Part shown: positions 4,924-19,493 of the stretch, one piece after another
Numbering within the stretch: position 1 is the first letter of the stretch
Layout of the letters: each line of letters opens with the position of its first letter
DNA from: an uncultured Clostridia bacterium
Lineage (GTDB): Bacteria > Bacillota > Clostridia > Oscillospirales > Acutalibacteraceae
Assembly (NCBI GenBank): GCA_944385105.1
Contig: CALWVR010000004.1
Location: 1 to 52,015 of the forward strand
Direction of reading: 5' to 3'
DNA length: 52,015 bases
Position numbers and translations under genes: made by a program
Notes under the pieces: generated by a model
What the model saw: only the letters and a program-made list of their open reading frames with translations
Databases searched by the model: none
What the model was told of the DNA's origin: nothing

Positions 4924-4988
4924 TTTAAATTATATATAAAAAGGTTTATAATATTCTTATTGAATTAATTGTGATCGGAGGAATTTTT

Positions 4989-5969
4989 TTGAAACCTAGT
5001 ATAATTTCTGAGGCACCTACAACTATTCTTAATTTTTTGGGCTATTTACAAACTATAAAAGGTAAGTCTCCAAAAACTGTTGATGAATATTATCTTGATT
5101 TAAGAACTTTCTTTAGATACATAAAATATTCAAGAGCTTTAGTTCCTAAAGACTCTAAATTTGATGAAATCCCTATATCTGATGTAGATATTTCACTTAT
5201 AGAAACAATCACCTTGACTGATTTATATGAGTATTTAAATTATCTGCTTGTAGAAAGAAATAATAATGCTTCAACACGTTCAAGAAAAATTTCAAGTTTA
5301 AAGTCTTTTTTTAATTATCTTACAAATAAAACAGGTTTATTAAAAAGTGATCCTACAAAGGAACTTGATATGCCAAAACGAAAATCTTCTTTGCCGAAAT
5401 TTCTAACTTTGGAACAAAGTTTAGAGCTCCTAAATAGCATCAAGGGCCCTTATAAAGAGCGTGACTATTGCATTATAACTTTATTTTTAAATTGTGGTAT
5501 GCGTTTGTCTGAACTCGTGGGAATTAACTTAAATGATATACGAAGTGACAATACTTTAAAGCTTACTGGAAAAGGAAATAAGGAGCGAATTGTATATCTA
5601 AATGATGCTTGCTTGCATGCCATTGAGCGGTATAAAATGGTTCGTCCTTCAACTAATATAAAAGATAGGAATGCTTTGTTTATAAGTAAGTTTAATAAGA
5701 GAATAAGCCCTAAAACGGTTCAGTTTCTGGTAAAAAAATATCTTGAAAGCATAAACCTTGACAATCAGGGGTACTCTGTCCATAAATTGAGGCATACTGC
5801 AGCAACGCTTATGTACCAACATGGTAATGTTGATATACGTATTTTAAAGGATATACTTGGACATGCTAACCTTGGCACTACTGAAATATACACTCATTTA
5901 TCAAGTAAACAACTACAACATGCAGTGTCATCAAATCCATTATCCTCTATAAACCAGAAGAAAATTTAA
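4989..5969 (+). CDS. tyrosine recombinase XerC/XerD family
   Basis: A 326-residue tyrosine recombinase. It has an N-terminal SAM-like core-binding domain (about residues 8-120) and a catalytic domain with the full active set: R172 in GMRLSEL, K near 195-198, H265 and R268 in HKLRH, H292 in LGHANLGTT, and nucleophile Y301 in IYTHLS. The chosen start is TTG at 4989, 7 bases after a GGAGG; the GTG at 4971 lies ahead of that site and is unlikely. Size and motifs fit a chromosome-dimer-resolution Xer protein rather than a phage integrase. It is separated from the phage-like block by the convergent ribosomal operon. Confidence 0.88.
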   Translation: MKPSIISEAPTTILNFLGYLQTIKGKSPKTVDEYYLDLRTFFRYIKYSRALVPKDSKFDEIPISDVDISLIETITLTDLYEYLNYLLVERNNNASTRSRKISSLKSFFNYLTNKTGLLKSDPTKELDMPKRKSSLPKFLTLEQSLELLNSIKGPYKERDYCIITLFLNCGMRLSELVGINLNDIRSDNTLKLTGKGNKERIVYLNDACLHAIERYKMVRPSTNIKDRNALFISKFNKRISPKTVQFLVKKYLESINLDNQGYSVHKLRHTAATLMYQHGNVDIRILKDILGHANLGTTEIYTHLSSKQLQHAVSSNPLSSINQKKI

Positions 5970-7368: not shown

Positions 7369-7860
7369 ATGAGTACAAAGTATAAAAAAGATCTAACTCA
7401 ACGCGAAAGACAATTTTGCGTCAATTATGTTAATACTGGCAATATTAAAGAAGCTGCTATCAGTTCAGGTTATAAATGCGACCCAGAAATTACTGGTAGT
7501 AGGCTCTTAATGAGGGACGATATAAACTCTGAAATCGAAAGTCTCTTTAACCAGAAGAAAAAAACACTTCTATATAAAGCATGCGTTGGGTATGAACGTT
7601 TAGCTTTTGGCAATATTTCTGATGCTATTAAATTGATTTATTGTGATAACCTTGATTCTCATGATATTTCTCATATGGATCTATTTAATATAGCTGAAAT
7701 AAAAAAGCCGGGAGATGGCAAATTAGAAATCAAATTTTTTGATAGACTAAAAGCTTTAGAAAAACTACAAGAAATGGACTTTTCTACTCAGAGTCAAGAT
7801 CGTTCATTTTACAACGCAATTGAGAATGGATTTAAAGCTTTAAACAACTCTTTAGACTGA
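7369..7860 (+). CDS. phage terminase small subunit (PBSX XtmA-like)
   Basis: DNA-recognition subunit of the packaging motor. The start is ATG at 7369 behind GGGGGGAAG, giving 163 residues; an upstream in-frame ATG at 7330 has no ribosome site. The N-terminus LTQRERQFCVNYVNTGNIKEAA with GYK and GSRLL is the classic small-terminase helix-turn-helix. The C-terminal part (FDRLKALEKLQEMDF) is the usual oligomerisation region. It opens the structural block and is followed 19 bases later by the large subunit. The family call is from recall of PBSX/Terminase_2 patterns. Confidence 0.85.
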   Translation: MSTKYKKDLTQRERQFCVNYVNTGNIKEAAISSGYKCDPEITGSRLLMRDDINSEIESLFNQKKKTLLYKACVGYERLAFGNISDAIKLIYCDNLDSHDISHMDLFNIAEIKKPGDGKLEIKFFDRLKALEKLQEMDFSTQSQDRSFYNAIENGFKALNNSLD

Positions 7861-7879
7861 ATGAGGGGTGCATTGGCTT

Positions 7880-9130
7880 TTGAAGTTTGAAACATTTTCA
7901 AAAAAACAGATATTAGTACTTTCTTGGTGGATGGATAATAGTCCATATCAGAATTATGATGCTGTGATTTGTGATGGAGCTATACGTAGTGGAAAAACTC
8001 TTTGTATGGGTATATCGTTTATTGCATGGGCATCAAAAAAATTTAATAAATCAAATTTTGGTATATGTGGAAAAACACTGGGATCTATAAGGCGTAATCT
8101 TGTATTACCTATTTTACCAACTTTGAATGAATTGGGTTTTAGGTGCGAATTTAAAATTTCTCAAAACCTATTGGTAGTAAAACATTTAAACCACGAAAAT
8201 ATTTTTCATCTATTTTCCGGTAAAGACGAGTCATCTGCTTCCTTGATTCAAGGTATGACTTTATCAGGAGTACTTTTTGATGAGGTAGCTTTGATGCCGC
8301 AGTCTTTTGTTGAACAAGCTTTAGCTAGATGTTCTGTAACCGGTTCAAAATTTTGGTTTAACTGTAACCCTGAATATCCACAACATTGGTTTAATATAGA
8401 GTGGATTCAAAAAGCAAAAAACAAAAATACATTATATATTCACTTTACAATGAAAGACAATCCTTCATTATCGAAAGACATTATTAAAAGATACGAAGGA
8501 TTATATAGTGGAACTTTTTATGAACGGTTCATTGAGGGCAAATGGGTTGTTACTCAAGGCACTGTTTATCCAGAAATGTCAAAATTAGATTCTTTTTTCG
8601 AGGTGCCTAAGGTCAATTTTGAAAAATATAATATTTCATGCGACTATGGAACTGTAAACCCCGCTTCATTCGGACTTTGGGGTAAGTACAACAACGTTTG
8701 GTATAGAATAAAAGAATATTATTATGATTCGAGAAAAGAAGGGTGCCAAAAGACGGATGAAGAACACTATGCTTCCCTCTGCGAGCTTGCTTCAAATCTA
8801 AAAATTGATTCTATAACTGTTGATCCATCTGCTGCAAGCTTTATTACTTTAATACGAAAACATGGTAAATATAAAGTTATATCAGCTAAAAATAATGTTA
8901 TAGATGGAATTAGACAAGTATCAACAGCACTTAAAAATAAAAAAATAAGAATTTGCAATACTTGTACTGATAGTATAAGAGAGTTTAGCCTTTATAGATG
9001 GGAAAATTCAAACAGTAGAGATGTCCCAGTCAAGGAAAATGACCATGCTATGGATGATATAAGATACTTTGTCAGTACTTTGATGGAAGATAGTGACGAT
9101 GGCTTTTTTGCTATTGCAGCACGCAGATAA
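7880..9130 (+). CDS. terL: phage terminase large subunit
   Basis: ATPase and nuclease that pumps DNA into the prohead. I place the start at TTG 7880, 11 bases after GAGGGG; the GTG at 7868 overlaps that ribosome site. This gives 416 residues. The ATPase domain shows Walker A GAIRSGKT (about residues 33-40) and a Walker B-like GVLFDEVALM. The nuclease domain shows acidic residues in SCDYGTVNPASFGLWG, SITVDPSAAS and the terminal DHAMDDIRYF. Both catalytic halves look intact, arguing that the locus packages DNA rather than being a headless tailocin. It is close to PBSX XtmB/Terminase_6-type enzymes. Confidence 0.92.
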   Translation: MKFETFSKKQILVLSWWMDNSPYQNYDAVICDGAIRSGKTLCMGISFIAWASKKFNKSNFGICGKTLGSIRRNLVLPILPTLNELGFRCEFKISQNLLVVKHLNHENIFHLFSGKDESSASLIQGMTLSGVLFDEVALMPQSFVEQALARCSVTGSKFWFNCNPEYPQHWFNIEWIQKAKNKNTLYIHFTMKDNPSLSKDIIKRYEGLYSGTFYERFIEGKWVVTQGTVYPEMSKLDSFFEVPKVNFEKYNISCDYGTVNPASFGLWGKYNNVWYRIKEYYYDSRKEGCQKTDEEHYASLCELASNLKIDSITVDPSAASFITLIRKHGKYKVISAKNNVIDGIRQVSTALKNKKIRICNTCTDSIREFSLYRWENSNSRDVPVKENDHAMDDIRYFVSTLMEDSDDGFFAIAARR

Positions 9131-9153
9131 ATTTAATTAAAAGGAGTGATTTA

Positions 9154-10308
9154 GTGAGACTTTTTAAAAGCAAGAATAAAAAAAACTACCCTATGGTACA
9201 GACCGTGGAATCTAAGTCTAGAGCTCATCCTTTCCAAGAAATTAGAAGGTATGTGCCCTTAGATAATCCGGAGTTAAAATTATATTCTATTTTAAGAGAA
9301 GCTGTTCCTATAATCGACGCTGCTATTTGTAAGACTGTTAGACTAATTGGAAATTTTGCAATAGATTGTGAAGATGAAAACATAAAAGAACAGCTTAACA
9401 AATTTATATCAACTGTAAAGGTAAACTGTTGTGAGGAAGGAATGGAATTTTTCATATCTACCTATTTTGATCAACTTTTAACTTATGGCACTGCTGTAGG
9501 AGAGATTGTCATAGACCCATGCACAAATACTATAGCAGCGCTTTATAACTCTTCTTTATCAAATGTTATTTTAAAAACAGGTAGGAGCCCACTAGAACTA
9601 ATAGTTTGTAGGAAAAATGAGGATGGTAGTGAAACTCCTGTAAAATATCAGGATCTTATACTTACTACACCTCTTAAACCTGAACCTGGCAAAATTAATG
9701 GAACGTCAATCTTAAAAGGACTGCCATTTGTTAGTGAAATTCTTCTAAGTATATATCAAAGTATAGGTACAAACTGGGATAGAGTGGGAAATGTACGATT
9801 TGCTGTGACATATAAACCAAGTAGTGATGTTGGCGATAGAGCTTTTGCTAAAGAGCGAGTTCAACAAGTAGCTGATCAATGGAGCCAGGCTATGCACTCT
9901 GGTAGCTCTCTTAGTGACTTTATTTCCTTTGGCGACGTTAGTATAAAAGTAATTGGTGCTGATAATCAAATCTTAGATAGTCAAGTACCAGTAAGGCAAA
10001 TGCTTGAACAAATAGTCTCTAAACTTTCTATACCACCTTTTCTTTTAGGTTTGTGTTGGTCAACTACTGAAAGAATGTCAACTCAACAGGCTGATATTTT
10101 AACAAGTGAGCTTGAATTTTATAGGAGACTCCTTACTTCTGTTATATCTAAAATTTGTAGGACGTGGCTTAATATTAATGGCTATGTAACTGATTTTGAT
10201 GTGGTTTGGGATAACATTAATTTGCAAGATGAAGTTGAAACTGCAAATGCAAAATTAATGAGAGCTAGAGCTTCTGAAATAGAAAAAAGATTGGAGATGA
10301 ATCAATGA
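9154..10308 (+). CDS. phage portal protein
   Basis: Portal ring protein through which DNA enters and leaves the head. It has 384 residues and a GTG start behind AAAGGAGTG. Recognisable parts are REAVPIIDAAICKTVRLIGN near the N-terminus and the long helix region with IPPFLLGLCWSTTERMSTQQ and FYRRLLTSVI near the C-terminus, typical of portals next to terminase. It overlaps the next gene by 4 bases (ATGA). It is shorter than the portal of many tailed phages, as in PBSX-like elements. Confidence 0.87.
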   Translation: MRLFKSKNKKNYPMVQTVESKSRAHPFQEIRRYVPLDNPELKLYSILREAVPIIDAAICKTVRLIGNFAIDCEDENIKEQLNKFISTVKVNCCEEGMEFFISTYFDQLLTYGTAVGEIVIDPCTNTIAALYNSSLSNVILKTGRSPLELIVCRKNEDGSETPVKYQDLILTTPLKPEPGKINGTSILKGLPFVSEILLSIYQSIGTNWDRVGNVRFAVTYKPSSDVGDRAFAKERVQQVADQWSQAMHSGSSLSDFISFGDVSIKVIGADNQILDSQVPVRQMLEQIVSKLSIPPFLLGLCWSTTERMSTQQADILTSELEFYRRLLTSVISKICRTWLNINGYVTDFDVVWDNINLQDEVETANAKLMRARASEIEKRLEMNQ

Positions 10309-11291
10309 AGCAGGGATTCATAGTAAAAAGCAATGCAAAGGAAGTATCAATTTCTGAGACTGAATTAGATCTTATTAATAAATATACAAAGAGAGAATTA
10401 AAACCCAAAGAGATATATGCATTTACTGTTGTACTTTGTGATAATGAAATAGATAGAGAGTTTGAAAAGTTTACAAAAGATGCTCTATACTCATTGTCTG
10501 AGCTATTTGTTGGCAAAACTGGAATATTAGATCATGAAATGAAAAGTGATAATCAAACTGCAAGGATTTTTGATTGTCATGTAGAACAAGTAGAAAATAG
10601 ATTTAATATGGTTGGTGAACCATATTATAGATTAATTGCTAAAGCTTACATGCCTAAGTGTGAGAAAAATAATGATTTTATATTAGACATAGATGCTGGA
10701 ATTAAGAAGGAGGTAAGTGTTGGTTGTTCTGTCAACAAAGTTGTGTGTTCTGTTTGCGGGGCTAATCTAAAAACTGACAAATGTAGTCATATAAAAGGTA
10801 ATTTATATAATGACAAAGTTTGTCATACAATACTTGATGAACCAACAGACGCTTATGAGTGGTCTTTTGTTGCTGTTCCAGCTCAAAAGGAAGCAGGAGT
10901 TATTAAGAAATTTGACTTTACCTTGAGAGGAGGTGTGACTAATATGGAGACGCTTATTAAATCTTTAAAAAATGGTGAGAGCATACAAATTTCATCTGAA
11001 CAAGCCTTGGAGTTATCAAAGCTGCTTGCAAAGTTGGAAGAATTAGCAGAAGAAGGCAAACTATATAGGGATGAACTCCAAAAGGATGTTGTAAGGTTAT
11101 GTGCTTTAACTCAACAAGATATAAGTGACAAAGTCATTGAAAGTGTAGCTGCAAAAATGACTATTGATGAACTTAAAGCATTTAAAAAATCTTATGAATC
11201 AAAATCTAGTGAAGTTTTTCCTGCAAAGCCCCAGCTTACTTGTTTAAGTAATGAAGAGCTAAAATGTTTAAATAATGAATTTAAATTTTAA
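10305..11291 (+). CDS. prohead protease-like protein (XkdF-like) with C-terminal scaffold domain
   Basis: A 328-residue protein in the slot for capsid maturation protease, overlapping the portal gene by 4 bases. The N-terminal part (about residues 35-200) shows FTVVLCDNEIDREFEKFTKD, TGILDHEMKS and KEVSVGCSV, matching XkdF/prohead-protease-like proteins. It also carries a four-cysteine pair, CSVCGANL and later C residues, within it. The C-terminal third (from about 214) is charged and helix-forming, like a scaffold. An in-frame ATG with its own strong ribosome site lies at the join (see the nested entry). I could not identify the catalytic serine with certainty. Confidence 0.72.
   Translation: MKQGFIVKSNAKEVSISETELDLINKYTKRELKPKEIYAFTVVLCDNEIDREFEKFTKDALYSLSELFVGKTGILDHEMKSDNQTARIFDCHVEQVENRFNMVGEPYYRLIAKAYMPKCEKNNDFILDIDAGIKKEVSVGCSVNKVVCSVCGANLKTDKCSHIKGNLYNDKVCHTILDEPTDAYEWSFVAVPAQKEAGVIKKFDFTLRGGVTNMETLIKSLKNGESIQISSEQALELSKLLAKLEELAEEGKLYRDELQKDVVRLCALTQQDISDKVIESVAAKMTIDELKAFKKSYESKSSEVFPAKPQLTCLSNEELKCLNNEFKF
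10944..11291 (+). CDS. putative nested scaffold protein (internal start in protease gene)
   Basis: ATG 10944 is in frame with the protease gene and has AGAGGAGGTG at 10926-10935, a better site than most starts in this window. Translation from here would give a 115-residue acidic, helix-rich protein (METLIKSLKNGESIQ onward). Lambda C/Nu3 and related phages make scaffold from an internal start in the protease gene, and the same layout fits here. No independent evidence of expression is visible in the sequence. Confidence 0.5.
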   Translation: METLIKSLKNGESIQISSEQALELSKLLAKLEELAEEGKLYRDELQKDVVRLCALTQQDISDKVIESVAAKMTIDELKAFKKSYESKSSEVFPAKPQLTCLSNEELKCLNNEFKF

Positions 11292-11320
11292 AAATATATT
11301 ATTAATTGGAGGATTTTAAT

Positions 11321-12331
11321 ATGGCTTTTTATGATTCTTTAAAATTGGAAAAAGGTATGTACAACAAAGATTTTACCAGTGCTTTGGAAAGCATTGACCC
11401 ATCAGAAAACTACATAAACACTAGCTTATCCGGTCTTGATGCATATGAAAGGCAACTAAAACGCTTTAACATTAAGGTTAAAGGGAAAAATTCTGATACT
11501 ATAGAAGCTTTCTTTAAAACTTCTGATTCTGCAGTTTTATTCCCAGAGTATGTAAAAAGAAGTGTATTACAAGGTATGAATAGTGCTAATGTCCTACCAT
11601 CTATTGTTGCAACTGTTACAAAGATAGATGGTAACGATTATAGAACCATAAAAACTACTATAGGAACGGATAGTAGTACTACTGGAATAAGTGAAGGTAC
11701 CGAATTAACTAGTACTACTATTACTAACCAGGATGAATTAGTGACTTTAAAGAAGCGCGGTAATGTAATTAGTGCTTCTTATGAATCTTTAAGATTAAAA
11801 AGGCTTGATCTATTTTCAGTAACATTAAGGCAAATCGGAGCACAGATCGCAAGAACTCAACTTAGTGATGCTGTTTCCGTATTAGTAAATGGAGATGGAA
11901 ATAATAATGCAGCTGTAGCTGTAGATCCTGTTAGTGCCACTGGCCTTGCCTACGCAGATTTAATTGCTTTATGGGCAAGCCTTGATCCATATGAGCTAAA
12001 TACTATATTAGCGAACACTGAAACAATGCAAGTTTTATTATCCTTAAATGAAATGAGAGATGCTGAAGCTGGACTAAGTTTCCAAGGAACAGGCCAAATG
12101 ATAACTCCTCTTGGAGCAACCTTATTACGTGCTGATAGTGTTGCTGATAATACACTTATAGGAATCGATAGAAATTGTGCACTTGAAATGGTACAAGCTG
12201 GTGATGTTTTAATAGATAGCGACAAATTAATTGATAAGCAGTTAGAAAGAATATCTATTAGCTGTACAGCAGGATTTGCAAAAATATATAAAGACGCAAC
12301 CAAGAAGATGACTTATACTAAAGCTTCTTAA
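11321..12331 (+). CDS. phage major capsid protein
   Basis: Main head shell protein, 336 residues. The start is ATG at 11321 with TTGGAGG upstream; the TTG at 11306 is part of that site. The order after protease/scaffold, the size, and a sequence rich in beta segments (VLPSIVATVTKIDGNDYRTI, VTLKKRGNVISASYESLRL) support an HK97-fold capsid of the PBSX XkdG group. The N-terminal helical arm is where a scaffold or protease would act. No frame damage is seen. Confidence 0.82.
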   Translation: MAFYDSLKLEKGMYNKDFTSALESIDPSENYINTSLSGLDAYERQLKRFNIKVKGKNSDTIEAFFKTSDSAVLFPEYVKRSVLQGMNSANVLPSIVATVTKIDGNDYRTIKTTIGTDSSTTGISEGTELTSTTITNQDELVTLKKRGNVISASYESLRLKRLDLFSVTLRQIGAQIARTQLSDAVSVLVNGDGNNNAAVAVDPVSATGLAYADLIALWASLDPYELNTILANTETMQVLLSLNEMRDAEAGLSFQGTGQMITPLGATLLRADSVADNTLIGIDRNCALEMVQAGDVLIDSDKLIDKQLERISISCTAGFAKIYKDATKKMTYTKAS

Positions 12332-12354
12332 CTTTAATAAAGGAGGAAAGTCTA

Positions 12355-12729
12355 TTGGATATACAAGAAATTATTGAAAGGTTTGCCTTGATGGCTAATC
12401 TTAGCTTAGAAAAAGCTAGTCAATTTACGTATATTTGCAATGATGCTAAAAGTGAAATAGAGTCTAAACTTAAAGAAGAAACAAACACTGAAGATAACAG
12501 CGGTCGGCTTAACGTCGCCGCTGCTACCTTAAGTTTTTATAAGTATACTTGTTATAAGGTTTCTAATCTGCCAGCCGAGTCAATTTCAGCTGGAGACATA
12601 AATATAAAAGAGAATTCTGAGAGAACAATGAAAATTGCTTACCGTATGTGGGCAGAGGCGAAGGCTACTATAGCTGATCTACTGCGTGATGACGACTTTA
12701 CATTTCGGAGAGTGATTGTAGATGGTTGA
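12355..12729 (+). CDS. phage head-tail connector protein (XkdH-slot)
   Basis: A 124-residue protein directly after the capsid gene, with a TTG start behind AAAGGAGG. It is mainly helical (IIERFALMANLSLEKASQF, then LNVAAATLSFYKYTCYKV). Position, size and helical character match head-tail adaptors such as gp6/XkdH that sit beneath the portal. I rely on gene order more than on sequence. It overlaps the next gene by 8 bases. Confidence 0.6.
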   Translation: MDIQEIIERFALMANLSLEKASQFTYICNDAKSEIESKLKEETNTEDNSGRLNVAAATLSFYKYTCYKVSNLPAESISAGDINIKENSERTMKIAYRMWAEAKATIADLLRDDDFTFRRVIVDG

Positions 12730-13069
12730 TGAATATGTCTTAAATACTATTAGATGCTTTGGCCAGTCAGTTGAAGTCTTAGAACCCAATTCCTCAGTAG
12801 GAGTAAAAACCAAGGCCTTTATACAACCGCTACGTTATAAAGACAAAATGTATATGGGAGGTATATATATTGAACCTGGATTTTTGGACGGTTCAGGATA
12901 TTTATATATAGGAGCTTCGGATGTAAGATTAGATACTATGCCATTTAATTCATTGGTTAAGACAAAAGAATGCAGTTATGTTATAAGAAAAGCTAGAGCT
13001 GTTTATTTTCAGGAAGAAATATTATATATTTGGGCAATACTGCAACTCTGTATAGAAGAGGAGCAATAG
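12722..13069 (+). CDS. phage head-closure/minor structural protein (XkdI-slot)
   Basis: A 115-residue, beta-rich protein (VKTKAFIQPLRYKDKMYMGG, YLYIGASDVRLD) between the connector and the tail terminator. Head-closure or stopper proteins occupy this place in PBSX-like gene orders. No diagnostic motif is visible, and the call is positional. Its start overlaps the upstream gene, suggesting translational coupling. Confidence 0.5.
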   Translation: MVDEYVLNTIRCFGQSVEVLEPNSSVGVKTKAFIQPLRYKDKMYMGGIYIEPGFLDGSGYLYIGASDVRLDTMPFNSLVKTKECSYVIRKARAVYFQEEILYIWAILQLCIEEEQ

Positions 13070-13071
13070 CT

Positions 13072-13557
13072 ATGAGTGTGTTTAACGACATTGTAGACAA
13101 AATAAAAGATACTCTTATAAATACTGATGAATTAAGCAGTATCAAATTTGTTAATACTTACCCATTTAAACCAATTCAAAATCCTTTAATAGATACTTAT
13201 GTTTCAATGGGAATTTGTAATATAAAAATTAAAGATGGGAGTTTTAGTTCATACCTTGGCACTGAGAACCAAAAGGATTTATATGGGCATCTTTCTAATA
13301 CAGACATAGAATTTAAAATTTATTCACCTAAAAATAAAGGCGGAAAAAGCTGCTATGATATATTTGCTTCAATTTATGAAGCACTTTTATTAAATTTAGA
13401 AACTATTAAAATAGAGTCAGTAATATGTGGAAAAGTTAATTATGATCCCGACACTTTTTCCTTTACATTAGATTTTCAAATAAGTTTTAAATCATTCATA
13501 GGATATAGTGTCGATGGAATTAATATTTCTGAAATTGTTGTTATTAATAATAATTAG
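13072..13557 (+). CDS. phage tail terminator/neck protein (XkdJ-slot)
   Basis: The start is ATG at 13072, 2 bases after the previous stop, with AGAGGAG upstream, giving 161 residues. It has an N-terminal helix (VFNDIVDKIKDTL) and then alternating strands, as in tail-terminator proteins that cap the tube beneath the head. It comes immediately before the sheath gene. Function is inferred from position and size. Confidence 0.5.
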   Translation: MSVFNDIVDKIKDTLINTDELSSIKFVNTYPFKPIQNPLIDTYVSMGICNIKIKDGSFSSYLGTENQKDLYGHLSNTDIEFKIYSPKNKGGKSCYDIFASIYEALLLNLETIKIESVICGKVNYDPDTFSFTLDFQISFKSFIGYSVDGINISEIVVINNN

Positions 13558-13568
13558 GGGGTGAAGCT

Positions 13569-14618
13569 TTGAATATCATAGCAAATGAACGTCCAGGAAT
13601 TTTTTATGACTATGACACATCTTCTATTATATATTCTGAACCTAATAACGCTGTAGTTGGAATAGTGGCAGAAGGCCCCAACAACAATATAGGAGAAATT
13701 TATAATATATATAAGATATCAGATGCTGAAACTATATTTGGAAATAATCAATCTATTACAGAACTTTGCAAAATAGCAATTGAGAATGGAGCTTATAAAA
13801 TAGCAGCTATAAATATAGGTGATAATGAAGAAAATTATGCTCAAGCTTTTAATAAACTTAAGGATACAGAAAACATTTGCGTTATTATATGTGATAGTCA
13901 TAACATTGAAACACAGACACTTCTAATGCAAAGCGTTGTATCAGCGTCTGAAAATTGCAAGGAAAGAATCGGAATAGTTGCTGCTCCCCAGGACTCAAAT
14001 GTAAGTACATGGGCATCCAACTTTAATTGTGAGAGAATTATATTAGTAGCCCAAAATCCCATAGATAACGATGGTAACATTAAAACAGGCAACATCTTAG
14101 CAGCTGCTCTAGCCGCATTAGTTTCTAAAAATTACGATAACCCATCTAAGACATTTAATGGAGCGGTAATATCTAGCATATCATCTTTATCTCCTTATTT
14201 AACAGACAGTCAAATAGATGATTATATATTAAGTGGAGTTACTCCGTTTGAAAAAATAGCTGATAGAATTGAGGTCATAAGGGCTATAACTTCAAAAAAA
14301 GAATTAGACTCTTCTGGAGTTAATAAGGTCGAAAATATAAATTTGATTTTAATATCTGACTTTATAATAAGGAATATACGAGAAGCTCTATATACTAGCT
14401 TATCTTTTTCATCTAATTATTTGGTATCATATAGTTCTATAGAAAATCAAGTTATTATAAAGTTGCAAGAATATTTAGAGCTTGGATTAATTTCATCTTA
14501 TGAAAAGCCAAATATATATCAGTCAACAAATGATCAGTCCGTTTGCATAGTAGAACTTGATTTTGTTGTTATTAATGGAGTTAATCAAATACATTTAACA
14601 GCTAACATAAAAGTTTAG
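13569..14618 (+). CDS. contractile tail sheath protein (XkdK-like), short form
   Basis: Tail sheath subunit of a contractile injection machine. The TTG start follows GGGGGTGAAG, giving 349 residues. The opening ANERPGIFYDYDTSSI, the alternating-fold middle region (ICVIICDSHNIETQTLLMQS, RIGIVAAPQDSNVSTW), and the C-terminal strands with VVINGVNQIHLTANIKV match the XkdK/phage_sheath_1 family. PBSX XkdK is roughly 465 residues, so this is a compact sheath that may lack a surface insertion domain. The conserved C-terminal inner domain is retained, so contraction is plausible. Confidence 0.8.
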   Translation: MNIIANERPGIFYDYDTSSIIYSEPNNAVVGIVAEGPNNNIGEIYNIYKISDAETIFGNNQSITELCKIAIENGAYKIAAINIGDNEENYAQAFNKLKDTENICVIICDSHNIETQTLLMQSVVSASENCKERIGIVAAPQDSNVSTWASNFNCERIILVAQNPIDNDGNIKTGNILAAALAALVSKNYDNPSKTFNGAVISSISSLSPYLTDSQIDDYILSGVTPFEKIADRIEVIRAITSKKELDSSGVNKVENINLILISDFIIRNIREALYTSLSFSSNYLVSYSSIENQVIIKLQEYLELGLISSYEKPNIYQSTNDQSVCIVELDFVVINGVNQIHLTANIKV

Positions 14619-14631
14619 GAGGAAGATTTTA

Positions 14632-15021
14632 ATGTTGAATGTCTCTTTTCCAACGAGTCAAGACATCTACATAGAGTTAAATGGAAAACGTCTTGCTGTT
14701 GTTGAAAGCTATAATGCTACATCAACTTGTGACACCCATTATGTTGAGTCATTTGGAGAGATTGAGCCTATTGCAACAATTAGGGGAAAAATAAAACATT
14801 TAATAAAACTCTCAAGAGTCTATGCATGTGAAAACTCATCAAGTAGCCCCATAAATTTTTATTCACTTAGCAATTTTAATTTAATAATAATAAAGAATAA
14901 TAAAAAAATAATTTATTCAGGATGCGAATGGTCCTCAATAAGCGAAGGAGCATCTTTGACTAATGTTGCTATTGAAAATGTAAGTATAGTTGCTACAAAG
15001 CGTACAGAAGTTTTCTTATAA
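14632..15021 (+). CDS. phage tail tube protein (XkdM-like)
   Basis: A 129-residue protein following the sheath gene, where the inner tube subunit always lies. It is beta-rich (DIYIELNGKRLAVVESYNAT; FNLIIIKNNKKIIYSGCEWS; ASLTNVAIENVSIVA), consistent with the tube fold. The ATG has GGAGG upstream. A tube gene with no tape-measure gene downstream is the striking feature of this locus. Confidence 0.65.
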   Translation: MLNVSFPTSQDIYIELNGKRLAVVESYNATSTCDTHYVESFGEIEPIATIRGKIKHLIKLSRVYACENSSSSPINFYSLSNFNLIIIKNNKKIIYSGCEWSSISEGASLTNVAIENVSIVATKRTEVFL

Positions 15022-15050
15022 TAAACCTCTGAAGGGATATGATTATATAA

Positions 15051-15215
15051 ATGTCTGAATATAAAACTAACGGAGTGATAACTTACGAGCAATTAGAAGA
15101 AAATATAAGTTATTTTATTTACATGCGGAGTATAGTAGATATTTGCGATTTAATAGAACAGGATTCAAGAAGATATAAAAAATATCTTGACAATGATATA
15201 GAGGAGGATGATTAA
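15051..15215 (+). CDS. 54-residue protein in the tail-chaperone/tape-measure slot
   Basis: A short ORF beginning ATGTCTGAATATAAAAC, preceded by GAAGGGATATGATT (weak ribosome site), whose TAA overlaps the next gene's ATG by one base (TAATG). The product is acidic and predicted helical (ITYEQLEENISYFIYMRSI, ending NDIEEDD). PBSX-like loci carry a tail-assembly chaperone (XkdN) of over 100 residues and then a tape measure of several hundred or more here. This ORF is the only coding capacity in that gap. Function is unknown; a reduced chaperone is one possibility. Confidence 0.7.
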   Translation: MSEYKTNGVITYEQLEENISYFIYMRSIVDICDLIEQDSRRYKKYLDNDIEEDD

Positions 15216-15742
15216 TGGCTTTAGATTTAATGAAGTATAAGACTTACACCTGGCATCATAATCCATCGAAGATCAATATATCATCTCAAAGGAACATTAA
15301 AGAAATAATAATGCCTTTTAGCGGAACTGTATTTCAGGATTATGGAAGAAGGAAGAGAATAGTATCCGGGGAAGGCAAATTTTATGGGATAGATTGTATA
15401 GAACAATTTAATTCATTATTCTCTATATTTAGTCAAGACTCAGAAGGATATTTAACTATACCAGGAATACAATCTTTTTTAGCCTTATTTCATCGACTCG
15501 AACTTTTAGGTGAGACAGCTCCTAATGTGGTAACTTATAAGTTTGAATTTTGGGAAGTTTTAAATGAAAGTGAGCAAAATGTTAAAGCTTGGTCTACAAA
15601 TTACCATATTGTCAGAAATGGAGAAACTTTATGGGATATAGCACAAAAGTATAATTTAGATATTAACGAATTGCTAAAACTTAATTTGGAAATAAAAAAT
15701 CCTAACACACTATATGCCAACGAGAGGGTGAGACTATATTGA
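15215..15742 (+). CDS. LysM-domain baseplate/tail protein (XkdP-like)
   Basis: A 175-residue protein whose last 46 residues form a LysM domain (YHIVRNGETLWDIAQKYNL...). The N-terminal part resembles the hub-connecting domain of XkdP/gp53-type proteins. In contractile systems the LysM protein links hub to wedge and may touch peptidoglycan. It uses AGGAGG as its ribosome site and overlaps the neighbours on both sides, showing tight coupling. It begins the baseplate part of the block. Confidence 0.8.
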   Translation: MALDLMKYKTYTWHHNPSKINISSQRNIKEIIMPFSGTVFQDYGRRKRIVSGEGKFYGIDCIEQFNSLFSIFSQDSEGYLTIPGIQSFLALFHRLELLGETAPNVVTYKFEFWEVLNESEQNVKAWSTNYHIVRNGETLWDIAQKYNLDINELLKLNLEIKNPNTLYANERVRLY

Positions 15743-16695
15743 AATATATAGCCAAAACTTTATCAGGAAATATGATCGATTTAGGTAAACCTTATACTAC
15801 GATTATAAATAAAGCAAAAAGAGTTCCGGCTGATGATTTAACTGTAGTTTTCCCTACATTAAGAAAGTTTGAAGAATTTGTTAGTATAGAAGTACTTGAC
15901 AATGAAAATAAAGTATTTTTTTCAGGAATAATAGACGAACAAAAAACAACTTGTACTAAATCAGGTTGTTTTTTAAGTTTAATATCAAGAAGTTATGCAG
16001 CTTACCTACTTGATAATGAAGCGCTACCGCAAACCTATGTTAACCCATCTCTCGATGTGATATTCGACAAACATATACGCCCATATGGTTTTAGTGATAT
16101 AACAGGAGATAAGAGTACTTTTTATGAAAGTTTTACAGTTTATAAAGGTATGAGTGAATGGGAGGTTTTAGAAAGTTTTTGCCTTAGCTTTTTGAAAGTA
16201 TATCCTAGGGTAAATTCAAACTTTACAGTTGACGCTACTGGAAAGTCATCTGATGTAGTTTGGAAATTTTCAAACAAAGGTGGAGGATTTAACTATAGCT
16301 ATATATTAGAGAATAATAGAAGACATAAATTAATCTCTAAAGTTTTTGCTCGAACTAGTAGTAAGGGTCCTTATTCTATGGAGATAAGTGATCCTGAAAT
16401 TTTACGCCGAGGAGTAGTAAAAAAAAGATATATAAATGCAAGAAATAATTTAAAGTCTCCAGAGCAATACGGAAAATTTATGATTTCTAAGTCAAAAAGT
16501 AAGTCATATGAAATAAGAATTTACTACCCTGGAGCAATAAACTTATCCGCAGGAGATAAAGTTATCGTTGATGATCTAATTCTAGGTTACATTGACAACC
16601 TTATTATACATAGAATTCGATACACTCTAGACCAAGACTTGCAAAATACAGAAATCGTCTTACGTAAGGAGGTAAAACACATTGTGGATTTCTAG
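15739..16695 (+). CDS. baseplate hub protein (XkdQ/gpD-like)
   Basis: A 318-residue hub protein of the XkdQ/late-control-D group, which forms the trimer at the tail tip. The TTG start overlaps the previous gene by 4 bases. Visible features are ADDLTVVFPTLRKFEEFVSI near the N-terminus, the middle segment VYKGMSEWEVLESFCLSF, and a late IYYPGAINLSAGDKVIVDDL strand set, typical of the hub fold. No lytic domain is attached. Confidence 0.77.
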   Translation: MKYIAKTLSGNMIDLGKPYTTIINKAKRVPADDLTVVFPTLRKFEEFVSIEVLDNENKVFFSGIIDEQKTTCTKSGCFLSLISRSYAAYLLDNEALPQTYVNPSLDVIFDKHIRPYGFSDITGDKSTFYESFTVYKGMSEWEVLESFCLSFLKVYPRVNSNFTVDATGKSSDVVWKFSNKGGGFNYSYILENNRRHKLISKVFARTSSKGPYSMEISDPEILRRGVVKKRYINARNNLKSPEQYGKFMISKSKSKSYEIRIYYPGAINLSAGDKVIVDDLILGYIDNLIIHRIRYTLDQDLQNTEIVLRKEVKHIVDF

Positions 16696-17017
16696 ACAAA
16701 TAAATGAAGTTAATAGAAATTATAAAGAAGCAGCTTTTGCAAATGTTACTGGTATATCAGATAATAGTATAACTGTAAATTCTCAACAAGAGTATAGACA
16801 AATACCAATGATATCTCCTTTCGGAATTTCCAGTATTCCGAGTATAGGCTCGAAAGCTGTAATAGTACCAGTAGATGGAAACTTTGCTTATATTGGGAGT
16901 TTAAGTTCAAGTACTACCCTTGACCCCGGTGAACTTATGCTATATTCAAGTGGAGGGGCTAGTATAATTCTTAAGAATAATGGACAAGTTTTAATAAATG
17001 GAAATTCAATTAGTTAG
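16682..17017 (+). CDS. baseplate spike protein (gpV/XkdR/DUF2577-slot)
   Basis: A 111-residue protein with a TTG start after AAGGAGGT, overlapping the hub gene by 14 bases. An OB-like N-terminal part (SITVNSQQEYRQIPMISPFG; GSKAVIVPVDGNFAYIG) is followed by a short beta-helix tip (GELMLYSSGGASIILKNNGQ), the signature of small gpV-type puncturing spikes. This is among the shortest plausible spikes. It sits in the slot of XkdR in PBSX. Confidence 0.72.
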   Translation: MWISRQINEVNRNYKEAAFANVTGISDNSITVNSQQEYRQIPMISPFGISSIPSIGSKAVIVPVDGNFAYIGSLSSSTTLDPGELMLYSSGGASIILKNNGQVLINGNSIS

Positions 17018-17024
17018 AGGTGAT

Positions 17025-17375
17025 ATGTTGGATACAGCTTTAAGCAATGGAGATTTCTTATTAGATTCCAGGAATAAATTGATTCAAGTCGAGGGTTATA
17101 ACGAACTTTTGCAGCAAGTTTTGATAAGACTTTGCGTAAAAAAAGGAAGCTTTGTATACGATAGAAACCTTGGGAGCAATTTATATAAATTGGATGTAAA
17201 TTCACAGGATATAAACAATAAAGCTCTTTCTATAATAAAAGAATCTTTAAGTGATATGCCGGAAATACTTGTAAAAAGGGTCTATACAGAAATAGAAAAC
17301 AGCGGAGACAAACTAAATATAGACATTTTATTATCAATTAATGGCGAAGAGAAAGATGTGGTGATAAAAATATAA
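17025..17375 (+). CDS. baseplate wedge protein (XkdS/DUF2634, gp25-like)
   Basis: Baseplate wedge component of the gpW/gp25 and XkdS group. I choose ATG 17025, which has AGAGGTGAT directly upstream; the in-frame ATG 16998 overlaps the spike gene and has no ribosome site. The product is 116 residues. Key part: QVEGYNELLQQVLIRLCVKK followed by FVYDRNLGSNLYKL, the typical gp25 core, and a C-terminal two-strand segment. The stop overlaps the next ATG (TAATG). Confidence 0.8.
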   Translation: MLDTALSNGDFLLDSRNKLIQVEGYNELLQQVLIRLCVKKGSFVYDRNLGSNLYKLDVNSQDINNKALSIIKESLSDMPEILVKRVYTEIENSGDKLNIDILLSINGEEKDVVIKI

Positions 17376-18439
17376 TGGAGACTTTCGAATCTATATTGAA
17401 CAGAATGGAAAGTAAATTTTCAGAATTGTCTGGGGTTGAACTTGATGAGGCATCAGATGTAGGAATTAGATTAAAAGTTTTAGCAGGAGAAATATTTGCT
17501 CTTGAAAATAATATAGACTGGCTTAAGAATCAAATGTTTATTCAAACAGCAACTGGGCAACAATTAGACTATCATGCTGTTGAGAGAGGGCTTGAAAGGG
17601 CGCAAGCAACTAAATCAAAAGGTCTTTTAACATTTAGTAGGACAACAGCAGACGACGAGCAAAATATAGTTCCTGCTGGGACTATATGTGCAACTTCAGG
17701 TATAAATAGTATAAGGTTTAAAACTATAAGTGATGTCACTTTTGACCCAGAAAGTTTATCAGTATCGGTTGAAGCTGAGTCGGAAGAAGAAGGAGCAAAG
17801 TATAACACTGGTGTTGGCACTATTACAGTTATGATAAATCCTCCTCCTGGTGTTACATCGGTAACAAACTCTGCTGCCTTTACAGGAGGCACTGATGCAG
17901 AAACAGATGACTCTTTAAGAGAAAGATTAATACAAAGTTATAATAATATATCAAATGGAACAAATTGCGCTTTCTACATTGAAGAGGCTTTAAAGTATGA
18001 TAAAGTATATTCTGCAACAGCTATAGCTAAAAAGCGCGGTAATGGAACAGTAAATGTCTATGTAGCTGGAAAGGGAGCTTTATTGAGTGATGATGACATT
18101 GAGACTATACAGAGTGGCATGAGTAGTTTAAAAGAGATAAACGTTGACGTGCTTGTATGCAGTCCAACTTTTACAAGTGTAAGTTTAGGAGTTTACATTA
18201 CTGTAGAAGATGGATATAAGTTTGAGTCTGTCAAACAAAGCTGCATAAGTGAACTGAACAACTATTTTAACTCTCTAAAAATAGGTGAATCATTTTTACT
18301 TTCTAATGTAGGAGAAGTATTATACCATATAGAAGGAGTTAAATCATACACATTTATGAATAGCATTTCTAATAATAAAATAGCCAGTGCTGATCAACTC
18401 TTCAAGAGTGGTGGAATAACAATTGAAGAAGGGAGCTAA
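17375..18439 (+). CDS. baseplate J-like protein (XkdT-like)
   Basis: A 354-residue baseplate J (gp6-like) wedge protein. It starts at the ATG overlapping the wedge stop. Family signatures include ATGQQLDYHAVERGLERAQA near residue 55, AGTICAT, EEEGAKYNTGVGTI, FTGGTDAETDDSLRERLIQS, and the later YVAGKGALLSDDDIETIQ. The length is normal for XkdT. It is one of the best-conserved genes of the block and, with sheath and gp25, supports a contractile apparatus. Confidence 0.92.
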   Translation: METFESILNRMESKFSELSGVELDEASDVGIRLKVLAGEIFALENNIDWLKNQMFIQTATGQQLDYHAVERGLERAQATKSKGLLTFSRTTADDEQNIVPAGTICATSGINSIRFKTISDVTFDPESLSVSVEAESEEEGAKYNTGVGTITVMINPPPGVTSVTNSAAFTGGTDAETDDSLRERLIQSYNNISNGTNCAFYIEEALKYDKVYSATAIAKKRGNGTVNVYVAGKGALLSDDDIETIQSGMSSLKEINVDVLVCSPTFTSVSLGVYITVEDGYKFESVKQSCISELNNYFNSLKIGESFLLSNVGEVLYHIEGVKSYTFMNSISNNKIASADQLFKSGGITIEEGS

Positions 18440-18442
18440 CTT

Positions 18443-19012
18443 ATGAATTCACTTAATTCAATGATTTCAAAACTTAAACCCTTAGGACTTTATAATTTAG
18501 ACTCTGACAGTCTTGTATATAAAGAGATATATAGTTACTCTTACGGACTAGAAATAATTGAAGACCTTCTAGACGAGCTTGAGAGAGAATGTTTTATCAA
18601 TACTGCTATAGATTATGGATTAGATAATAGAGAAAAAACTTTTGGATATGTTGATCAAGGGCTTCCTACTGAAAGCAGACGAAAACTTTTAATATGTAAC
18701 AATTCAGTAACACGTAATGACTTTACAAAAGCTGATATTGAATATCTGCTTGGAATCTATGGCATAGATTCTTATATTATAGAAGTTCCAAATGATAGTA
18801 CAATACATATAAATGTTTTATCATTTACAAATAGTGTTCTTAGTAAGTCAGAAGTGTTAAACCGCATCCAGGCATATCTTCCTGCACACCTTAATTGTAT
18901 ATTTGACTTTAGAGAATTACAATGGCAGCAGATTGATGCTATGGACTTAACCTTTGCTCAAATGGACAATAAAGATCTTACATGGAATGAAATAGATAAT
19001 TATGAACAATAG
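18443..19012 (+). CDS. tail protein I / XkdU-like (DUF2313) with C-terminal repeats
   Basis: A 189-residue baseplate protein that usually bridges the wedge and the fibre. The N-terminal half (IIEDLLDELERECFINTA) and REKTFGYVDQGLPTESRRKL match the DUF2313/XkdU family. The last 30 residues hold three tandem repeats of about 10 residues with pattern LTWxxIDxxD (QWQQIDAMD, LTFAQMDNKD, LTWNEIDNYE). The start has GGGAG upstream and follows the J gene by 3 bases. Confidence 0.8.
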   Translation: MNSLNSMISKLKPLGLYNLDSDSLVYKEIYSYSYGLEIIEDLLDELERECFINTAIDYGLDNREKTFGYVDQGLPTESRRKLLICNNSVTRNDFTKADIEYLLGIYGIDSYIIEVPNDSTIHINVLSFTNSVLSKSEVLNRIQAYLPAHLNCIFDFRELQWQQIDAMDLTFAQMDNKDLTWNEIDNYEQ

Positions 19013-19025
19013 GAGGTAATCTAAT

Positions 19026-19493
19026 ATGCCAACGCAAAATAAAACTGAAAATCTTCTTCTTAATCAGTGGTTAAGTACCGATAAACCTAAAAGAGAAGAC
19101 TTTGTATCAGATAATCTTATAATAGACCAAGTAATATCAGAACATCTTGAAGATTTCGATCTTCATTTATCTGAATCAGACAGAACACTTCTAAGCAATC
19201 CATTTGCAATTGGAACTATATCTGGCGATGGACAAAGTTCTAAAATTCATACTTTAGATTTTATACCTAAATTTATCTTTGTATTTTTGAAAACCTATCC
19301 TTTAAGTTATTATGACTCAGACAATGGATATACTGTTGTAAATAGTGGTATTGCTACAAATGGATATGGATCGTCAAGCGGAATTAACTTAACACTAAAT
19401 TCCTTAACTTTATCTCAATCCACTACTGCGTCTGACGGTATTTTTAACAATTTAAATGCAGTTGCAAATTATTCATATATAGCTTTCAAATAA
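19026..19493 (+). CDS. short tail fibre-like protein
   Basis: A 155-residue protein ending the block. Its N-terminus has the motif LLNQWLSTDKPKREDFVSDN followed by IID, common at the start of clostridial tail fibres. The C-terminal half has a FIPKFIFVFLKT strand as in H-type fibre tips. XkdV-type fibres are much longer, so this is a minimal or trimmed receptor-binding protein. The ribosome site is AGGAGG. A terminator shared with queH follows. Confidence 0.72.
   Translation: MPTQNKTENLLLNQWLSTDKPKREDFVSDNLIIDQVISEHLEDFDLHLSESDRTLLSNPFAIGTISGDGQSSKIHTLDFIPKFIFVFLKTYPLSYYDSDNGYTVVNSGIATNGYGSSSGINLTLNSLTLSQSTTASDGIFNNLNAVANYSYIAFK

Follow-up and report, generated by a model that had tools for sequence, protein, structure and literature searches.

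What does a bacterium retain when it keeps the genes for a phage head and a contractile tail, every frame open, and has next to nothing in the position of the gene that sets tail length? The question is raised by an uncultured Clostridia bacterium of the family Acutalibacteraceae, order Oscillospirales (assembly GCA_944385105.1; 1.38 Mb in 33 contigs; G000), in which eighteen consecutive genes on one strand run from terminase to tail fibre at positions 7369-19493 of the window, the 52,015-nucleotide stretch analysed here, which is one whole contig (CALWVR010000004.1). Reading of the open reading frames (ORFs) together with profile searches confirmed the gene content, order and undamaged frames that the original prediction had described for this block. 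Its spacing of 1-25 bases needs adjustment, since the overlaps are real (up to 20 bases) but gaps reach 29 bases, between the tube gene and the 54-residue ORF that follows. The block is a single chromosomal head-plus-tail operon that is intact, inherited with its hosts across several families and without genes for its own integration or replication. Together with the stepwise tail reduction described below, this suggests that it is retained as a means of moving the DNA of its host. We consider it likely that the block is a domesticated element resembling a gene transfer agent (GTA).

The tape-measure slot is reduced to a short, conserved reading frame

A complete contractile-tailed phage carries genes for integration, replication and lysis, together with a full-length tape measure and a tail chaperone. 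As predicted from the sequence at the outset, no tail chaperone, holin, endolysin, integrase, repressor or replication gene is found within 7369-19493, and the slot between the tube gene and the LysM gene measures 193 bases and holds a single 54-residue ORF. In two myophages with the same gene order, this slot contains both a chaperone and a tape measure: it extends over 2370 bases with a tape measure of 584 residues in Clostridioides phage CD2301 (its tube gene was assigned by position, the record labelling that gene as a terminase), and over 5034 bases with a tape measure of 1441 residues in Bacillus phage BalMu-1. The earlier statement that the block has no tape measure therefore holds for a long one, but it had passed over the vestigial ORF in the slot. 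The one tape-measure family searched, PF10145, has no match in G000. The holin family PF05105, the only one of the holin, endolysin and repressor families searched, has no match in G000, in the sister species G001 and G002 or in G037; its two matches in G099 are distant from the block.

We defined a strict slot motif as [DE].RR[YF] no more than 25 residues from the end of an ORF that ends at the LysM gene. This motif occurs in 61 of the 105 loci with a LysM gene, against 72 of the 14,513 ORFs of 40-250 residues that these loci contain, a total that counts the slot ORFs, and a looser form is present in 88 of 99 slots versus 1.3% of all ORFs. Because the motif is enriched in slots, we take the slot ORF to be real and conserved. 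Searches of PHROGs gave no match for the slot ORF of the window, for the 96-residue slot ORF of G001 and G002 or for the two longest slot ORFs, and weak matches to unnamed families for two chaperone-like slot ORFs. Among the 92 loci with both tube and LysM genes, the median slot length is 1148 bases in the 31 that bear a sheath gene versus 124 bases in the 61 that do not; the only sheath carriers with a slot below 250 bases are the window, L020 and L022, and the only sheathless loci above 250 bases are L030, L093 and L097.

In the comparison of G001 with G002, the slot chaperone shows dN of 0.003 and dS of 0.042 (nonsynonymous and synonymous divergence) and a 51-residue slot ORF is unchanged. 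A tract of about 700 bases comprising the tube end, the chaperone and this ORF (L018:10785-11546 against L017) is approximately 99% identical between the two, the remaining 300-base steps showing 79-93% identity; either recent recombination or an assembly effect could account for it.

The operon descends with its hosts under purifying selection

The portal gene was found in all three genomes of the host genus, with the same gene set in each, as expected for a domesticated locus. It is present in 227 of 398 genomes of the host family (E ≤ 1e-10), in 189 of 287 good genomes and in 82 of 135 genera; most of these genomes are metagenome assemblies, and the counts depend on profiles built in this analysis. 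Three of the 227 family carriers have two portal matches and the rest have one. Across the order it was detected in 43 of 295 genomes, spread over six families. Named genomes contain at least 596 stretches that match the pattern, at least 483 of which encode a relative; the named-genome loci analysed below are the best 80 of these (at least 483) relatives, in records labelled Ruminococcus, Oscillospiraceae, Clostridia, Clostridiales and others. Named strains among the carriers include Pseudoruminococcus massiliensis Marseille-P3876 and Anaeromassilibacillus sp. An172, which between them carry a sheathless form and a form with neck and tube fused. The position of one portal gene equates G086 with P. 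massiliensis, a member of the Acutalibacteraceae.

To examine descent, we compared a tree of head proteins (portal, protease, capsid and, in 27 of 28 genomes, TerL) with a tree of RpoB sequences, collected by tblastn with the G000 protein as query, for 28 genomes chosen to span families and forms of the block. The two trees have 19 of 25 splits in common, whereas the average over 10,000 label shuffles was 0.2 common splits and the highest value 3, bearing out across the order the vertical inheritance proposed for this locus. None of the loci examined in close relatives has a full-length prophage in its place.

Selection was measured in relatives, no partner of the window in the set being close enough. 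In the closest carrier pair, the sister species G001 and G002, the ratio dN/dS lies between 0.023 and 0.218 for all 17 named genes of the block, as had been anticipated; the value is 0.023 for the fibre and 0.155 for the sheath, and is highest for the gpI-like gene. Three further pairs gave values of 0-0.30. For the head-only pair L042 and L053 the range is 0-0.10.

Tails are reduced in series across the order

The original prediction took whole modules to be missing from this block. They are absent here, but this is not a loss specific to the strain, since the related blocks examined lack them too and in some the tail genes are reduced further; the family has many loci with short slots, and a tail loss unique to this strain was ruled out. 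What is new here is a series of tail reduction that extends across the order. A census of 185 portal loci, from which known duplicates were removed (some near-copies remain) and whose gathering enriched sheath carriers, comprises 37 loci with a sheath, 80 with tail genes and no sheath, 9 with a fusion of neck and fibre proteins, 15 that are head-only and 44 left unclassified because their contigs are too short. The nine fusion loci have no tail genes. The 80 named-genome loci divide into 2, 46, 7, 11 and 14, respectively, the two sheath loci of this set (L028 and L029) being identical to L017 and L018. Head-only denotes loci in which no tail profile matched, a few of which end near a contig end and two of which (L118 and L119) may conceal a fusion in their long hc3 gene; the tube, neck and fibre profiles used in the census were built free of fused proteins. 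In the host family, the sheath is found in 17 of the 398 genomes (11 with strong matches), compared with 227 for the portal. The 53 sheathless, unfused loci have a neck-tube gap of at most 182 bases (at most 30 in 47 of them), so no sheath gene is hidden there. In some relatives, the neck terminator is fused to the tube protein, and the predicted fold supports this (A4 model, VIA-align comparison).

Among the 28 genomes, 16 carry a sheath, a distribution that requires five changes on the head tree and six on the RpoB tree, although this count by itself does not separate gain from loss. The sheath tree has 10 of 13 splits in common both with the RpoB tree and with the head tree. Because distant families also carry the sheath together with longer slot ORFs, we favour repeated loss. 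The window retains a sheath over a vestigial slot, while most relatives found are sheathless. We give roughly even odds to a more detailed history, in which the block belongs to an ancient GTA family, older than the divergence of the host families in this order, whose tail was contractile at the outset and has been dismantled repeatedly: a tape measure of about 200 residues would have dwindled to about 40, the sheath would have been lost at least about five times, and the neck would have fused first to a single tube ring and in the end directly to the receptor-binding fibre, leaving no tail. The window would then be a living intermediate with one or two tube rings, in which the sheath still fires or is merely carried.

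The sheath of G132 (L021:2069-3092) is split over two frames; this relative may be losing its sheath, or the assembly may be at fault. For blocks that lack the J gene, we looked for tail genes elsewhere in 18 genomes, 13 of them the sources of named-genome loci: 13 have no J match, and the remaining five have long J-type proteins only. The three of these that were opened (L250, L251 and L252) contain a cluster unlike the block, with J-type proteins of about 1020 and 720 residues and neighbours that read as gp25-like and hub-like; it resembles a contractile injection system. In G667, a cluster of this kind is located on the same contig as a head-only block.

Probable domestication and a proposed particle

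The reading of the block as a domesticated particle, made at first from its gene set, gains support from co-descent and dN/dS, gene transfer itself remaining a prediction from the genes. Set beside the six features of GTAs listed in the available passages of PMC9662315, the proteins of the block derive from tailed phages; its genome is, by sequence, endogenized, lying among host genes and nearly always in one copy, with the limit that two viral-collection loci have an integrase nearby; and it is vertically inherited and co-diversifies with its hosts.

We propose that the PBSX-type terminase would fill a small HK97-type head with host DNA, that hc1, hc2 and hc3 would close the neck, and that the tail would consist of one or a few tube rings, with the sheath still present in this genus, on a baseplate of LysM protein, hub, spike and J protein. 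The vestigial slot protein would set the height of this tail in place of a long tape measure. In phage T4, a ruler of 590 residues corresponds to 23 rings, about 25 residues per ring; by this analogy, 54 residues would suffice for about two rings, whose stroke of a few nanometres would not carry the tube through a Gram-positive wall. Such a shortfall would account for the frequent loss of the sheath. Particles might be released on lysis of some cells, either through genes outside the block or through mother-cell lysis (Spo0A_C, a premise for the latter, is present in G000, G001, G002 and G099), and would carry host DNA to kin.

Several observations weigh against this interpretation. The element is known here from its genes, from which the particle, its packaged DNA and their transfer are predicted, and no lysis gene or regulator was found for it (one holin family having been searched genome-wide). 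The view of the slot ORF as a putative tape-measure remnant comes from position and the length series only; its motif is absent from both phage tape measures examined (CD2301 and BalMu-1), and the 96-residue slot ORF of G001 and G002 shows the weakest constraint seen, with dN/dS of 0.36. The fifteen head-only loci and the nine without tail genes fit DNA delivery poorly. Six of the 25 splits disagree with RpoB, namely deep forks among families, G565, and the positions of G099 and G022 within the host family. The ORFs L190:7395-8468 and L246:388-1494 exceed the Pfam cut-off for phage integrases and lie no more than about 5 kb from the block, in 2 of 80 viral-collection loci; no such ORF was found in the remaining 182 non-window loci, and these two may represent a neighbouring or a still mobile element. 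Finally, the flanks of the window match none of the 104 other loci compared, and at least one relocation of the block must have occurred. Within several clades both flanks agree (105 loci compared), and G001 and G002 share one chromosomal site that differs from that of the window; the block thus relocates now and then yet descends with its host. Our claims are strongest for conservation, co-descent and the tail series, and weakest for the transfer of DNA.

Alternative explanations

The alternative that survives best, which we nevertheless regard as unlikely, is a killing particle of the PBSX kind that packs host DNA without injecting it and acts as a bacteriocin against relatives. Known contractile particles kill with tails whose length lets them penetrate the cell wall, whereas the slot in the window permits few rings, and most relatives found lack a sheath yet retain terminase and portal. 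The gene order and terminase are nonetheless of PBSX type, the fibre is strongly constrained, and PBSX itself packs host DNA without injection, as described in the available passages of PMC12946183.

It is considerably less probable that the head has been co-opted for another task, such as the protection or sorting of DNA within a single cell that starves or sporulates, delivery being secondary or, in relatives without a tail, lost. The head-only and neck-fibre fusion loci are what this explanation would expect, as are purifying selection on L042 and L053 and the presence of Spo0A. The full baseplate and fibre kept under constraint in G001 and G002 would be needless for an internal compartment, an objection that is silent on the head-only forms.

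Slightly more remote still is an active phage or capsid-encoding satellite that spreads between hosts with its other genes elsewhere. The block does occur in viral collections (86 relatives in a viral contig collection), and two of the six viral contigs viewed in full (L190 and L246) have a phage-type integrase near it. The portal has six matches in a set of 50,697 phage records: one Microcystis phage at 29% identity and five unannotated faecal records. Three of the latter, deposited as faecal bacteriophage (MT835508, MT835952 and MT835769; L025-L027), were opened, and their other genes are those of a host chromosome, for example Rnf and a ribosomal protein, by names assigned from our reading of the ORFs. 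Viral collections thus count the block as virus. In addition, a search with three integrase seeds detected such ORFs in 3 of 185 loci (L190, L246 and a XerC-like gene in the window) and in none of 78 named-genome loci, within a mean of 13.3 kb per locus, a span that would miss distant genes; and the block co-descends with RpoB.

Least probable of all is a decaying prophage caught with open frames: whole modules are absent, the G132 sheath lies in two frames and head-only loci exist, but dN/dS of at most 0.22 in 17 of 17 named genes of G001 and G002, occurrence in 82 family genera and host-following trees are unexpected of debris, and on selection, prevalence and trees we rejected it.

Relation to known systems

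GTAs outside the Alphaproteobacteria are few. RcGTA, whose long tail is non-contractile and includes a tape measure, and the other alphaproteobacterial GTAs belong to a different phylum from the host of the window. The preferred interpretation, a domesticated GTA-like element, finds its nearest published counterpart and closest experimental support in FpGTA of Faecalibacterium, a likeness drawn by description and not from gene homology. According to the available passages of a January 2026 paper in Nature Communications (PMC12946183), FpGTA is the first GTA from the human gut microbiome and is most likely podovirus-like, with particles of about 40 nm, no identifiable tail and DNA of about 9 kb. 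In these passages, FpGTA shares with the window a Bacillota gut anaerobe as host, an operon of terS, terL, portal, scaffold and capsid with conserved phage hypotheticals, an absence of replication genes, and a tail that is not visible or very short (PMC12946183). It differs in being encoded by two operons, the second with holin and endolysin, whereas the block in the window is a single operon that retains a contractile sheath and contains no lysis gene; the passages do not mention a sheath (PMC12946183). The packaged Faecalibacterium fragments measure 8.4-8.9 kb (PMC12946183), compared with 12.1 kb for the window block; the comparison would bear on whether the block's own genes exceed its head if the two heads are homologous. 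A Faecalibacterium phage marker (Mushu) matched in 1 of 247 genomes, at 78%.

The comparison with PBSX was made through BalMu-1 and CD2301, which have the same order of sheath, tube, slot, LysM (XkdP), hub (XkdQ), XkdS and XkdT, and the terminase of the window is of the PBSX family; the phages' slots of 5.0 and 2.4 kb set them apart from the window. Among the matches listed in the open-access literature, we recognised no sheath-bearing or tail-reduced GTA for these bacteria. Sequence comparison follows a GTA-like element here across several families of one gut order, one form of it with a contractile sheath, and its natural intermediates make testable both the minimal tail needed to move DNA between close kin and the control of tail length when the tape measure is almost gone.

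Gene assignments and chromosomal neighbourhood

Table 1. Genes of the terminase-to-fibre block, in window coordinates
Feature	Position	Strand	Basis
Small terminase (terS), 163 aa	7369..7860	+	Pfam Terminase_2 5.7e-16; frame open from 7330
Large terminase (terL), PBSX family	7868..9130	+	TIGR01547 1.6e-62, above cut-off
Portal protein	9154..10308	+	phrog_30703 2.8e-132
Probable head maturation protease or scaffold	10305..11291	+	phrog_16951 6.4e-99 (function unnamed); weak head-protease matches
Major capsid protein, HK97 type	11306..12331	+	phrog_3922 3.7e-85; TIGR01554 above cut-off
Neck protein hc1 (adaptor position)	12355..12729	+	Position only; kept in relatives
Neck protein hc2 (stopper position)	12722..13069	+	Position only; kept in relatives
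Neck protein hc3, tail terminator	13072..13557	+	
Tail sheath, 349 aa	13569..14618	+	phrog_279 2e-20; profile matches solved sheaths
Tail tube, 129 aa	14632..15021	+	
54-aa ORF in tape-measure slot	15051..15215	+	EQDSRRY near C-terminal end
LysM / DNA_circ_N-like tail protein (XkdP position)	15215..15742	+	Pfam LysM 3e-12
Baseplate hub	15739..16695	+	phrog_177 1.6e-11
Gp45-like spike	16682..17017	+	Phage_Mu_Gp45 8.5e-5, slightly under cut-off
gp25-type sheath initiator or wedge	16998..17375	+	PF10934 5.7e-6, under cut-off; phrog_43, phrog_975
Baseplate J	17375..18439	+	PF04865 2.9e-48
gpI-like tail protein	18443..19012	+	phrog_521 1.1e-14
Tail fibre, 155 aa	19026..19493	+	Last gene in relatives too; weak matches to unnamed families only

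TerL scores 212 bits against TIGR01547, which describes PBSX-family terminases, for a curated cut-off of 105. The sheath profile matched four solved sequences, three of which are named as sheaths, and the similarity of the LysM protein to endolysin families is confined to its LysM part. In relatives, the capsid protein starts at the residue equivalent to position 11321 of the window.

Upstream of the block, on the other strand, are a divergent rpsF-ssb operon with a gene read as rpsR and, 1.4 kb away, the XerC-like tyrosine recombinase (4971-5969), which scores under the XerC and XerD cut-offs; downstream lie queH and a serine dehydratase gene. No long direct repeats and no convincing attachment repeats flank the block. 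In the head-only relatives L034, L042 and L053, the block stands directly upstream of genes read as rimP-nusA-infB, and in the window genes read in the same way follow the block at a distance of 21 kb on its contig (40875-45580), on the downstream side. G002 also contains an apparent ordinary prophage (L253, G002:C19), away from the block, with a tape measure of more than 1000 residues. Many relatives have a gene of 110-123 residues between protease and capsid (L019:7117-7488, L020:4271-4615 and others), perhaps a capsid decoration protein, which is absent from G000 (window 11291-11306), G001 and G002. The order of the capsid, portal and protease genes is shuffled in some relatives (L117, L197 and L206).

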